DNA from: a virus
Reading direction: 5' to 3' (one strand)
Virus record (IMG/VR): IMGVR_UViG_3300044911_002386
Coordinates: 1-64,000 of that record
DNA length: 64,000 nucleotides
Shown here piece by piece: positions 31,284-47,100 of the stretch. Positions within the stretch are counted from its first letter, which is position 1; every line of letters starts with the position of its first letter. The notes beneath the pieces were generated by a model that was not told the origin of the DNA, searched no databases, and saw only the letters and a program-made list of their open reading frames with translations. The position numbers and the translations under genes were made by a program.

Positions 31284-31529
31284 CTAAGTGGTTTCGTAAT
31301 CTTTGAAGTCGTAATTTGACTTCTGTTCTTTAATAGTCAGTTGCCGTTTGGGGTATTTTTCCGGGTGGCATACCTGACAACGAGCTCGGGCGCAGCCAGC
31401 ACAACGTAAAGACTTTCTGAATCGACCGGCTTCTACTTCTGGCCAATTTCCGATTAAAGACCAAAGTAAGTGCCGGCGCAACTTAGCGCGATTTTCTAGA
31501 ATGTGCTTTTCTTCGTGATAGCGTTTCAT
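31284..31529 (-). CDS. phage protein with CARARCQVCHPEK motif
   Basis: An 81-residue basic protein from the ATG at 31529. MKRYHEEKHILENRAKLRRH at the start and GRFRKSLRCAGCARARCQVC followed by HPEKYPKR. The C.GC..ARCQ.CHP.K.PKR block is one I recall from many phage hypotheticals and probably binds zinc. The high Arg/Lys content suggests nucleic-acid binding. Function unknown. Confidence 0.68.
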   Translation of the reverse strand: MKRYHEEKHILENRAKLRRHLLWSLIGNWPEVEAGRFRKSLRCAGCARARCQVCHPEKYPKRQLTIKEQKSNYDFKDYETT

Positions 31530-31578
31530 TTTTAACTCCGTGTACAAGTAACTACATAGTTATTGTAACACGCGGGAA

Positions 31579-32271
31579 TCAGACCTTGACGAGCGACTTC
31601 GAAGCACGACGCTTCTTCATCGCAGCCTCAGTGGGCTCTTCGCCGTACACGGCACTCATGCCAGGCGTGAGGCAATCAGCCGTGAAGCGCCCGAACCTAG
31701 GCCGCCACTCGCACAGGCCGCACATCGTGCCCGCTTTCTTGATCCAGCGATCAAGTTGGGCAAAATTGATGATTGAGTCCTCGAACGAAATCGACACAAC
31801 AGCCGACCAGTCATGGAAGATTGGCCGAGTCGAGACGACGCGAGACTGCTGCCGCGCCACCAGCGTGGTGAACCGGAAACCTTCGGCTTCCGGAGTCGGG
31901 CGGGGCGACGTGTCTTCAAACATTGCTTCCGGCTCGCGCGGACCGGCGTACTCTAACTTAAAGAATCCCGGGGGCGCCGCGAACACAGCGCACTTGGCGA
32001 GCTGGCCTTCCTTGGTCTTTCGAGCCGCGGCGTTAATCGCTGCTACGATGGTCGCACCGGGCAGTACGGGACCCAACTCCTCGTGCATATGCAGGCTGCC
32101 GAGGAACTCAATATGCCCCATCTCGATGTGGTCGGCGTCGGTCTTGACGCGCTTCGAACTGACGCTCTTGAGCGCCTTAGAGAACTTGTTCAGCGGGTTT
32201 GCCATCTGAACGTTTTTCACAACCATCGGGCCGTCCCCGGTGATCTTGTAATCAACATTAACCCAACTCAT
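31579..32271 (-). CDS. hypothetical protein, 230 residues
   Basis: The ATG overlaps the stop of the HNH gene (ATGA). MSWVNVDYKITGDGPMVVKN, HIEFLGSLHMHEELGPVLPG, VVSISFEDSIINFAQLDRWI and GTMCGLCEWRPRFGRFTADC. Mixed alpha/beta. The last block, GLCEWRPRFGRF, resembles a phage family with a G-L-G/C-x-W/F-R-P-x-F-G-R-F ending; I cannot name its role. Co-transcribed with the HNH protein. Confidence 0.58.
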   Translation of the reverse strand: MSWVNVDYKITGDGPMVVKNVQMANPLNKFSKALKSVSSKRVKTDADHIEMGHIEFLGSLHMHEELGPVLPGATIVAAINAAARKTKEGQLAKCAVFAAPPGFFKLEYAGPREPEAMFEDTSPRPTPEAEGFRFTTLVARQQSRVVSTRPIFHDWSAVVSISFEDSIINFAQLDRWIKKAGTMCGLCEWRPRFGRFTADCLTPGMSAVYGEEPTEAAMKKRRASKSLVKV

Positions 32272-32585
32272 TGATCTATGTCCTTCCGTTGATGAATCGT
32301 GGGAACAATGTAATTACAGCCCAAGTCTTTGTTTTTGTAGCGACGAGCTCGTATTACATTTGTTATTGCTTCGTGACACTCGCTGCATAGCGTAATTAAA
32401 TCTTTTTCGACATCCTCTTCGCCAAACCGTTCATACGTCTTGTGATGCACTTCGAGCTGATATACAGATCCGTCGTGCAAACACGTTTGGCATTCATAGT
32501 TGTCAATCACTAGACGTTGCGTGCGCTTTTCACACCAGTCATATCTGGCCATGCGCACGGCATAATTTAACGTCGTTGAATCCAT
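32268..32585 (-). CDS. HNH endonuclease-like protein
   Basis: A 105-residue protein. CQTCLHDGSVYQLEVHHKTY then DLITLCSECHEAI: two Cys pairs (CxxC...CxxC) around LEVHH with the LITLC..CH ending, the compact HNH layout with structural zinc and metal-binding His. It should nick or cut DNA. Free-standing HNH proteins near terminase genes often take part in packaging or mobility. Its leader (32586 onward) begins at the end of the pentamer array, so it may be expressed through that array. Start ATG with AGGGGT upstream. Confidence 0.82.
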   Translation of the reverse strand: MDSTTLNYAVRMARYDWCEKRTQRLVIDNYECQTCLHDGSVYQLEVHHKTYERFGEEDVEKDLITLCSECHEAITNVIRARRYKNKDLGCNYIVPTIHQRKDIDQ

Positions 32586-32645
32586 TTGTTACCCCTGGTT
32601 TATGTGTAGTTTCCGCAGCACATAAAACCGCAACCTACCCTAATT

Positions 32646-33457
32646 GTTTTGAAAGAAAAAACCAAACCCAACGTCACCCTGCGTTACCTTACCGGACGTT
32701 ACCCGACCTTACCGGACCATATTTTGTTTGAAAGAAAAAACCAGACCTGACCAAACCCCAGCTTATGCCACCCCACCGAGCCAAACCCTATTTTGTTTGA
32801 AAGAGAAAACCAGACCTTACCGTGCCTGACGTTACGCTACCGAACCAGACCGCACCCTAAATTGTTTTGAAAGAAAAAACCGAACCAAACCCAATAGCGC
32901 CATGCGTTACCGAACGAAATCAAACGTTGCCAAAACAGACACTACCGAACCGTACCGGACCTAACGCAAATTATTTGAAAAAACCATACCGAAAGCTACC
33001 GGACAAAACGCAACGATACCGGACCTGACCGCAAAATTTTGAGAAGAGAAAACCAAACAAAACCGAGCCTAACGATACCCTGCCGTACGCTTGTTGAGAA
33101 AAAAACCATACCTGACCTGATCCCGCCATACCGTACCATGCCGTACCGGACAAGACCCTACACGACGTTACAACACCTTATATGTTTGAAAGAAAAAACC
33201 AGATCTGACCAAACCCCAACTTACCCTGCCCCACGCTACAGTTTTGAAAAAGAAAAACCCTGCCACACCGTACCAAACCTAACCCGACGGCATTCGACCG
33301 AAGCTAACCACAAAGTTTTGAAAGAAAAAACCATACCCGATCGAACGTTACAACACCTCACGTCACCAGACCCGACCTAACGATAAAGTTTTGAAAGAAA
33401 AAACCTAACCTTACGCCGCCATACCGAGCCGGACCTGACCTTACGCCAGCCGACCAT
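32646..33457. repeat. phased ACCNN pentamer array with 11 A-rich spacers
   Basis: Eleven copies of a spacer close to GTTTTGAAAGAAAAAACC start at 32646, 32726, 32795, 32864, 32971, 33036, 33091, 33184, 33241, 33315 and 33388. Each is followed by 8 to 18 consecutive five-base units that begin ACC or a one- or two-base variant (ACG, GCC, ATC) and then any two bases. By hand I count 124 units, about two thirds with CC in positions 2-3; the register does not slip within any tract. The other strand reads NNGGT with T-rich spacers. There is no gene inside. The function is unknown; origin, centromere-like or protein-binding array, and a structured RNA are all possible. Confidence 0.9.
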
Positions 33458-33464
33458 AAGTATG

Positions 33465-33914
33465 TTATTTAGCGCTGTCGCCAAGAATGACGTTGCGACA
33501 GCCGCACGATGTTGCGAGAGGAAGCACATCATCTGCATAGCCCGCGACTAGTTTCTCTTTGTCGAGATAACCAGTGCTGATAAGTGCCTGCAAGCCTAAT
33601 CGAGCAAAGCCCCGCCGCCGGAACGCCGGGTCGACAAAGCATTCCACCGTCTGCACAGCGACAAACGTGTCTTTTACATGCTCGCGCCATGGGCGTGTGC
33701 CCACCCAGCCGACTAAAACACCTTTAAGCCACACGAAGGCTATTGCCATGTTGGGGTGCGGGCCTGGCTGCGGGTTGAGGTAACGCTTATCCAGTTCTTT
33801 TTGAATAGAGCTCGCACTGCCTGAGTCTGGCCACGAAAGCCGCGAACAAATAGCAGCGACATCAACCGGCCGCAATTGATTGATGTCTTTGATGTAAATG
33901 TTAATCTCGTCCAT
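33465..33914 (-). CDS. GNAT-family N-acetyltransferase
   Basis: A 149-residue protein. The ATG at 33914 has GGAGG six bases upstream. The acetyl-CoA motif A is at VECFVDPAFRRRGFARLGLQ (R/Q-x-x-G-x-G/A variant), preceded by the strand FVWLKGVLVGWVGTR. The C-terminal CGCRNVILGDSAK fits motif B. The substrate cannot be read; phage GNATs modify host proteins, small molecules or DNA bases. Its stop lies just after the last pentamer tract, so the array is downstream of it. Confidence 0.75.
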   Translation of the reverse strand: MDEINIYIKDINQLRPVDVAAICSRLSWPDSGSASSIQKELDKRYLNPQPGPHPNMAIAFVWLKGVLVGWVGTRPWREHVKDTFVAVQTVECFVDPAFRRRGFARLGLQALISTGYLDKEKLVAGYADDVLPLATSCGCRNVILGDSAK

Positions 33915-33949
33915 ATAGGCCTCCATACCTGGCACACGAGTTTAACTAT

Positions 33950-34863: not shown

Positions 34864-35205
34864 TTAGTCATCGTAATCGTCGGAATCAAAGTCGTGCTCG
34901 TACTCGGGCTCTTCTTCGTCTTCGTCTTCGTCGTCTTCGTCTTCGTCATTCCAGCTAAATGACTCTTCGTCATCTTCTTCTTCGTAATCCTCGTCTTCGT
35001 AATCCTCATCTTCGTCTTCGTCATCTTCGTCGGCGTACCAGTCGACATTTGGCTTGTATAAGACGTCGTCATCGTCGTCATCGTCATCGTCATCGTTGTC
35101 GCTGACGAACTGCCACTCTTCTTCAATGAAATCGTCGTCCAACCCGTCGTCGTGGTCTTTTTTGCTAAAAATGGATTGTTCAGCCCGTCGACGATCATAT
35201 GCCAT
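34864..35205 (-). CDS. highly acidic low-complexity protein
   Basis: A 113-residue protein. Residues from about 25 on are Asp and Glu in long runs (SDNDDDDDDDDDDVLY, DEDDEDEDEDYEDEDYEEED) broken by Tyr and Trp. The DNA reads as imperfect GTC/TTC/GAC triplet repeats, so length is likely unstable. Such proteins can mimic DNA or bind basic host proteins; that is inference. It lies between the primase-like gene and the glycosylase. Confidence 0.6.
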   Translation of the reverse strand: MAYDRRRAEQSIFSKKDHDDGLDDDFIEEEWQFVSDNDDDDDDDDDDVLYKPNVDWYADEDDEDEDEDYEDEDYEEEDDEESFSWNDEDEDDEDEDEEEPEYEHDFDSDDYDD

Positions 35206-44198: not shown

Positions 44199-47100
44199 TC
44201 AAACGTTGCGGATAGCAGTCCGTAATGCCGCATTCGTATTAATTGCGACAATTAACTGCGCCAAGAAATCCGCTGTTAACATTGCTCCGCCGGTGGGACC
44301 TGTAGACCCGGTAATACCCTGCTCGCCTGGGGCACCGGGAGGCCCGCATAAACCTGTCGGCCCAGTCACGCCAGTTAAGCCTGTGACGCCTGTTGTGCCT
44401 TTGTCGCCCTTTGGACCCGTCAGCCCTGTTACGCCCGTTACGCCTAATCCTGCAGGCCCTGTGGCTCCTGTAACGCCCGTCAGCCCAGGCACACCCTGCA
44501 GGCCTAATCCTGACGGTCCGGTAGCCCCGGGCGAGCCAGACGGGCCTGTAGACCCTGGCGGGCCAGATGGGCCTGTAGCCCCTGTACGACCAGTTGGGCC
44601 GGTGCTGCCAGTAACACCCTTTTCGCCCCTGTCGCCCTTTGTACCCCTATCGCCTTTGGAGCCGCTTGGGCCTGTACCGCCGCTGGCGCCGCTCGGGCCA
44701 CGCCCGCCGCTTGGGCCTGTGCCGCCGGTGGCGCCGCTTGGGCCGTCTGGCCCCGTAGGTCCAGTTGGACCTGTGACGCCTGTAATACCTGTAACACCCG
44801 TGACTCCTGACGGGCCTTCGGCGCCGGTTGGGCCTGTAACCCCCGTCATCCCCATAAGGCCCGGAGAGCCGTCGAAACCGCGTGGGCCGCCCAGACCAAT
44901 AGGGCCGCTGGGGCCGCTAAGACCTGTAGCGCCCGTTACACCTGTCATGCCGCTCGGGCCGGTCATGCCCGTCATACCGTCTAAGCCGTTATTACCCGGC
45001 TGCCCGGGTGGCCCCTGAAAACCTGTTACGCCGGTTACACCGGTAATACCAGTCGGACCTGTAACGCCGGTAATACCTTTGTCGCCCTGCTCACCTTTTT
45101 CTCCCTTCGGCCCCGTCGGTCCCGTAATCGGCTCCGGACAATCGCCGCCACTAGAACCACCACCGCTACCACCACCGCTACCGCCACCGGTGTCGCTGTC
45201 AGGTTCCGGGCAAGTCGTAGTTTGAAAATTTAAATCTAAGTCAATGAAAGTCATGCCGCTTTCTTCGACAAATTTTATTTCACCAGTACCGATACCCTCT
45301 GGAGTTATTGTGACTTTCCCGCCACGTAATGCCTTTGGTTTAATTTTTAACTTTGGCTTATACGTTAACGAATTGCCGCCGCCACTGCCGCAGCCGCCGC
45401 CATCAGTCGTGGCCTCTAGTTTGATGTACTCGACTGGGTTGTAAACGCCGCCGACAAGCCCCGTCCCGCCGCCGATCTGGTAACCCACATATTCAGTTTC
45501 TTGCGGCTCAAAAACTGGAAGTTCAATATTTAATCTGATGTACGGCGCAATCCAGTATTTGCACTTGTCATACTGGTCACGCACGACGGCGATTGCCGCT
45601 TTATGCTGCCCGCCGGGAGACGCCGAGCCTTTTTTGTGATAGCAAATAACGACGCGCTGGTTCTCTGGCCCGACGCCGGTTTTCTGCCCTGTGAAGTCGT
45701 ACTCAATTGTCGTTTTGCAAAACGGCAGATTAAGTTGCAGACCAATGTTGTAGTTGCAGTAATATCCTGGATTGGTGGCTGACGTTACTGTCAACTGGCC
45801 TGTCGGATTTTGGTCCGGATCAATTTTTCTGATTATGACCGGCCCCGGCGAGATAGTCGGGCACGGCGGCTTCGGAATGCGAATGTCTATCGACAAGTAG
45901 AAATCAAAGTTGCATTCGTCTACTTCGCAGTCTTTGACGATAGGTCGTTTGACAATTCGAAAGTCTAGGTTTGTGTTATTTTCATACGACGCGTTAAGCC
46001 GACTTGAAATAACGTTTAACGTCGGGCACGGTGGTTTTGGCAAGGCAATGGATACACCTAGACCAAATTCAAATACGCAGATCGGCGGTGTTTTGCACGT
46101 GGCGGGAATGTTGCGGGATACGATGTAAAACGCTGAAGCATTACCGTTGCCAAAACTTCTGGCATTCGGTAATGACATAACCGCTGATTGGTTTGCCGCC
46201 GCGCATGTTGAGCCTGCATATGCACCGGCGGCAAAGTTTGACGACACTACAAACGCGGGGCACACCGGCCCGATCAGCGGAATGTATATCTCTAATTCAA
46301 TATCAAAAATACACTGCCCAGGATCATTACAGGTGGGCTCAGTGTGGTTTGGCGTAATCGCGAATTTGTTTTGTTTAGTAATGCAGCCGCCGTAATTTAC
46401 GTAGCCGCTGTCCACGCTAAATTTTTTGACGTTTAACTGCGGGCATCGTGGCACCGGAATAGGTATGTCAATAATAAGTTCGACGTCAAACGTACACTGA
46501 CCCGGCCCATCACACGTGGGCTCAGTGTGTCTTGGTGTAATTGAAAATTTAGTGTTCTCTTTTTTGCAACCCGGTTTATTGAAATACGAATTTACCTTGG
46601 CGGGCAAGACATTAAATTGCGGGCATGGCGGCAGCGGTATCGGAATGTCGATGACCAGCTCGACCTCGAAATCGCAACGGCCCGGGTCGTCGCATGTTGC
46701 CGGACTTTGCCGGACCGGATAAATGCGAAACTTGTTTTCTCTTACCGGGCACTCTGGCCGGTCTATATGCGGATTTACAGTAAACTCTGTAACGGTTATT
46801 TCGGGGCACGGGATGCGTGGAATTGGTACGTTGATGTAGACTTCGACATCAAAGATGCACGCGTTTGGATCTTTACAACTTGAGGCAGTTGCTGGACTAA
46901 ACGTGGCGGCATCTGTCCCGAGCGTAAAGTTTTCAACAACGTTTAACTCGAACAATTTTGATTTGTTCGTCAGTCCGTCAGCGACTAAAAACTGGCGATA
47001 GTTGTTCGTTAGAAAATCTGCTGAACTATTTAAATACTCTACACGTGTTATGACGTTAAACGGATCACCGCCAGTTGCTTTTGTATAATCGACAACGTAT

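Follow-up and report, generated by a model that had tools for sequence, protein, structure and literature searches.

The closest described counterpart of the locus reported here is VIPR (Viral Interference Programmable Repeat), presented in a 2026 preprint, not peer reviewed, as a phage relative of CRISPR that is used by viruses against rival viruses and is proposed as an ancestor of CRISPR (PMC13142463). The system combines a RAMP-family protein, Vipr (a single-RRM RAMP with a G-loop, ~20 kDa), with vrRNA guides consisting of 9-16 YNNGG repeats and an invariable 3' tail, in which GGY is conserved and NN is hypervariable (PMC13142463). DNA is read as NN pairs with one base skipped, the skip falling mostly at the wobble position; the guides lie on the vipr strand in the intergenic DNA flanking vipr, the accessory genes are termed vap (vap1-6), and the SUSP1 clade has a conserved structured (pseudoknotted) vrRNA tail (PMC13142463).

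The locus under study lies in a window of 64,000 nucleotides (the whole stretch analysed, positions 1 to 64,000 of IMG/VR virus record IMGVR_UViG_3300044911_002386) and was recognised from its repeat anatomy alone. It is read as the VIPR system of a large tailed phage, comprising an 11-guide array, vipr and an HNH neighbour, with a probability of about 0.94. An earlier note on this DNA had called the array an undescribed repeat system, a description overtaken by the report of VIPR (PMC13142463); since the preprint cites IMG/VR, the window locus may be among those that it covers. The Vipr of Escherichia phage SUSP1 (NC_028808, PDB 36pp, type II VIPR) belongs to the same 21-row clade as that of the window, and the two loci are alike in being phage-borne, in carrying (NNGGY)n guides beside vipr and on its strand (in SUSP1, three such tracts of 11-15 units flank its vipr), and in the presence of a 3' tail on each guide. 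They differ in guide number (11 in the window, all on one side of vipr, versus 4 in SUSP1), in the tail (short and T-rich in the window, unlike SUSP1), in Vipr itself (only ~32% identical), and in the neighbouring genes (an HNH nuclease gene upstream of vipr in the window; instead, a downstream phrog_5926 gene in SUSP1). Class 1 CRISPR-Cas systems, built on a Cas7/Csm3 backbone, share the guide-RNA logic, and the predicted fold of the window Vipr is nearest to Cas7-type RAMPs; however, the window locus has neither identical repeats nor contiguous spacers, and no cas1 or cas2 was seen near the array. TRAP is a ring protein that binds a (G/U)AG triplet plus two spacer bases, as in the (GAGNN)11 of the trp leader. 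The likeness lies in a triplet and two free bases per RNA-binding subunit, while TRAP belongs to another protein family and, in the window system, the free bases carry information.

The guide array and its neighbouring genes

The features of the locus, all on the minus strand, are as follows.

31579..32271, minus strand: vipr, 230 aa, RAMP-family guide-RNA-binding protein homologue of SUSP1 Vipr (from sequence, profile and predicted fold)
32268..32585, minus strand: HNH endonuclease gene, 105 aa, directly upstream of vipr and overlapping the vipr start (Pfam HNH, 2.6e-8)
32646..33457, minus strand: vrRNA array, 11 guide RNAs, (NNGGY)n plus T-rich 3' tail (GGTTTTTTCTTTCAAAAC type)
32646..32720, minus strand: vrRNA 1, 12 units and tail
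32725..32789, minus strand: vrRNA 2, 10 units and tail; similar to vrRNA 8
32794..32858, minus strand: vrRNA 3, 10 units and tail
32864..32968, minus strand: vrRNA 4, 18 units and tail; the longest
32972..33032, minus strand: vrRNA 5, 10 units and shortened tail
33036..33091, minus strand: vrRNA 6, 8 units and variant tail; the shortest
33092..33179, minus strand: vrRNA 7, 15 units and variant tail
33183..33242, minus strand: vrRNA 8, 9 units and tail
33241..33311, minus strand: vrRNA 9, 11 units and tail
33315..33384, minus strand: vrRNA 10, 11 units and tail; the sole window guide with a candidate target
33388..33457, minus strand: vrRNA 11, 11 units and tail

Parsing of positions 32646-33457 yielded 11 tracts of 12, 10, 10, 18, 10, 8, 15, 9, 11, 11 and 11 units (total 125, mean 11.4), with one A-rich spacer at the start of every tract, which confirms the earlier count of 11 spacers each starting a tract of 8-18 units; the extremes of this range are slightly beyond the published 9-16. 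Among the 133 parsed units, column 1 is A or G in all 133, column 2 is C in 112 and column 3 is C in 92, columns 4-5 are approximately free, and off-consensus units (ACG, ACA, ATC and others) form a sizeable share. The period-5 information at the array peaks at 55 bits per 60 bases, compared with a window mean of 9.7 (s.d. 4.5). The five-base register does not slip once within the array, as the earlier note had said, although its wording (the register "never slips") fails for arrays elsewhere (e.g., the phage locus L028, with occasional 4-base units). A CRISPR-Cas array was considered and rejected, given that the units vary in NN and no identical direct repeats separate unique spacers; the initial view that the array is neither a microsatellite nor CRISPR is thereby upheld. 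Searches of Rfam, including ribozymes, gave no match over the array (only the neighbouring tRNA), and no sigma-70-like promoter was matched beside it, a negative that carries little weight if the promoters of the host depart from that model.

Read on the minus strand, the tracts become (NNGGY)n and the A-rich spacers become T-rich 3' tails, in agreement with the earlier suggestion that the other strand matters and that an RNA might be involved. The tails are approximately identical in 7-8 of the 11 guides and similar in the related loci L025 and L026; they are short and lack a strong conserved fold, some predicted folds showing no more than a weak hairpin of 5-6 bp. Retention of the spacer word and register by relatives had been proposed as a test of the array, and L025 and L026 keep both tail and register, indicating a real element. 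Other IMG/VR records with numbers of their own (L002, L012, L119, L125) contain an identical copy of the array, which makes the assembly artefact raised as a concern unlikely. Within the array, the first seven NN pairs of vrRNAs 2 and 8 (32740-32789 and 33198-33242) are mostly in common, and these may be either a diverged duplicate guide or two guide versions against one target.

The gene at 31579-32271 lies on the same (minus) strand as the array, ~0.4 kb away, and several lines of evidence identify its product as a Vipr homologue. The product matches SUSP1 AVU07_agp039 with 32% identity (E 3e-29, tblastn), both proteins are in phrog_4652 (function not assigned in that library), and a Vipr family profile built without SUSP1 retrieved PDB 36pp, "SUSP1 Vipr protein" (E 1.9e-41). 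The AlphaFold model (pLDDT 92.5) has as its best solved Foldseek matches Cas7-type CRISPR RAMPs (Csm3, type VII, type IV), and the G-loop residues are conserved (invariant G185, R190 and G194 in GLxxxRPxxGRF). Phylogenetically, the window Vipr falls within the 21-row clade that includes SUSP1 (support 96/90), a placement by which it is type-II-like. This identification bears on an explanation in which a TRAP-like ring protein takes a triplet every five nucleotides and regulates or sequesters RNA, with NN as mere spacer. The geometry is alike (three bases read, two free) and the modal tract length is 10-12, but no TrpBP/TRAP homologue was found in the phage genome by a search whose control recovered TrpBP in Bacillus subtilis, and the partner protein of the array is a Cas7-like RAMP instead of a ring protein. 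Furthermore, NN is not neutral, as guides in sister phages spell rival-phage coding sequence (see below), leaving a TRAP-like system very improbable.

Homologues of the HNH gene among the loci (L025/L026, L135, L158, L212) are in every case directly upstream of vipr on the same strand and represent several lineages, while the gene is uncommon beside other VIPR loci. From its sequence and position, it is a candidate accessory (vap) gene.

By analogy with the preprint system (PMC13142463), expression, complex formation, DNA binding and repression would be expected of the window locus. The minus strand would give up to 11 vrRNAs, expected to end in GGTTTTTTCTTTC, and each GGY would be gripped by one Vipr subunit, with the subunits forming a RAMP filament that coats the RNA and the NN bases of each unit remaining available for DNA pairing. 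Jointly, the NN pairs would spell a target as NN-x-NN-x with one base skipped, and the complex, by docking at such matches on the double-stranded DNA of mobile elements that compete with the phage, would shut down their genes. The neighbouring HNH nuclease may contribute cleavage, and this suggested partner could convert binding into cutting.

Distribution and insertion site

A scan of viral contigs for exact matches to eight RCCNN units recovered at least 120 loci. Long arrays with free NN account for 96 of the 133 viral rows among the matches listed versus 5 of the 124 bacterial-genome rows, nearly all of the latter being ordinary tandem repeats, a contrast that is qualitative only because the pattern length differed between the two scans. 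The array unit varies with base composition, with ACC tending toward AT-rich phages and GCC toward GC-rich ones. In iterated HMM searches, vipr was found in 73 of the 87 viral loci with free-NN arrays among the matches listed, whereas no vipr was detected in the 72 sister loci lacking an array or in the 47 controls, which had been retrieved solely through their spacer word. The array-less tally leaves aside three more sister loci that fell short of the array threshold but contain vipr; inspection showed arrays in at least one of them, L025. The array loci without detected vipr are partly short contigs. A few free-NN arrays in the bacterial collection also have vipr (L322, L263, L268 and L334, in MAGs including Alphaproteobacteria, Fibrobacteres and Patescibacteria), and these may be prophages or phages binned with the MAGs. 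BLAST of the window array against annotated phages gave no match, while the GCC-type array of L200 led to similar arrays in mycobacteriophages. Matches to such arrays come from phages of Mycobacterium (27 records) and Gordonia (2 records), among them NC_028751, NC_028889, NC_051636 and NC_031249, where they are frequently annotated as hypothetical proteins; possibly, these annotations represent non-coding vrRNA arrays called as genes.

Comparison with sister phages delimits the element. The insert at 31548..33464 corresponds exactly to the HNH gene, vipr and the array, filling a gap of 1,920 bp between the genes at 31284-31547 and 33465-33935. Both genes belong to the core set of the sister phages, and they lie no more than 27 bp apart in 29 of the 44 records measured. 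The same hotspot in sister phages also holds another VIPR branch (L073, and L028 by position), and in L075 it contains two tracts with no vipr visible on a short contig:

14000-14660 of L028: other-branch VIPR locus at the hotspot
13279-13600 of L066/L073: other-branch VIPR locus at the hotspot
3306-3505 of L075: array only, at the hotspot

Loci of this other branch (L028, L066/L073) are inserted between the same pair of phage genes as the window locus, while their Vipr is ~20-23% identical to the window Vipr, their arrays are of the GCC type with 4-base slips, and they have neither T-rich tails nor a homologue of the window HNH gene. In sisters without VIPR, unrelated ORFs occupy the hotspot, which is bounded by the small conserved gene on one side and the GNAT gene on the other (L052 14247-15865, 530 aa; L054 14986-16115, 371 aa; L062 7353-7818, 154 aa), and these are possible conflict genes of other kinds.

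The pattern of presence and absence also bears on the origin, packaging-site and G-quadruplex readings offered in the earlier note, in which the array would be a DNA site read every half-turn (a replication origin, a centromere-like or packaging site, or stacked G-quadruplexes). The five-base phasing, the intergenic position and the GG per five bases on one strand are all compatible with such a site. However, the array is missing from most sister phages that have the same terminase and neighbours, which argues against an origin or pac site of essential function, and since array and vipr are gained and lost as a pair in these sisters, a half-turn binder, a packaging site and G-quadruplexes were set aside as highly unlikely. 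The vipr strand is also the GGY strand in 79 of 80 loci, and G-quadruplexes require neither a conserved Y nor vipr; these readings leave the conserved Y beside GG, the free NN and the near-constant vipr unexplained.

Guide targets and turnover

Guides were decoded with the published one-base-skip rule (NN-x-NN-x). A 12-unit guide of L026 matches 22 of 24 letters of an AAA+ gene where it encodes the Walker B motif (DAMAPC[VI]LF). The match recurs in 27 sister-phage loci, among which the wobble bases differ, and its score was reached by 0 of 400 shuffles. A 10-unit guide of L066/L073, from the other VIPR branch, matches 18 of 20 letters in the same AAA+ gene, ~240 bp from the L026 site (1 of 400 shuffles reached 18). 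In both matches the skip falls on the third (wobble) position of each codon, and other skip lengths gave no comparable excess for these guides. When all guides were tested over mixed loci, no excess was seen at any skip length; the excess is confined to the sister-phage set. Sister-phage DNA represents independent support for the one-base-skip code and indicates sister phages, beyond satellites and prophages, as VIPR targets. The carriers of the L026 and L066/L073 guides have no full-length homologue of the AAA+ target in available sequence; at most, they show 35-38% identity to the AAA+ gene over ~40 residues inside a different ORF (499-554 aa), and otherwise nothing matches it.

For the window guides, vrRNA 10 has a weak candidate target in sister phage L030, within a small gene (19 of 22 letters, in codon register), a score reached by 1 of 400 shuffles and corresponding to ~0.03 after 11 guides, whereas for the other 10 of the 11 the 2.4 Mb of sister DNA searched offered no convincing target. 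Partial exact-match scans of IMG/VR, using vrRNAs 7, 9, 10, 2 and 11, returned 2-11 matches each, in which the remaining units did not extend convincingly; these were treated as chance and rejected as targets. The scarcity of targets in the DNA searched, together with the numerous off-consensus units, would fit an array that was formerly functional and is now decaying or orphaned, with most guides having no living target. On the other hand, vipr is intact, with a high-confidence predicted fold and conserved G-loop residues, the register is perfect over 125 units, and competitor phages are thinly sampled, and a decaying array is therefore considered unlikely relative to a functional VIPR system.

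Guide content differs even between near-identical phages. The flanks of L025 and L026 are 93% identical and their vipr genes 96% identical, yet whole guide cassettes have been gained and lost, and the guides that they share differ mostly by T/C at the Y of GGY, the pattern predicted if either pyrimidine will serve at Y while GG and NN are the letters that count. Taken together, the observations suggest, as a tentative picture somewhat more apt to be wrong than right in its entirety, a nuclease-armed, type-II-like VIPR and HNH operon directed against close relatives in the same host, with swapping at the hotspot, exchange of guide cassettes, and escape of carriers by means of a non-orthologous version of the target.

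Two other features of the window were observed. An ORF at 34864-35205 (113 aa) is a very acidic Asp/Glu repeat that may encode a DNA-mimic-like protein or be no more than a low-complexity gene, and positions 44512-44744 contain tandem repeats of 27 bp that are possibly collagen-like in the coding frame.
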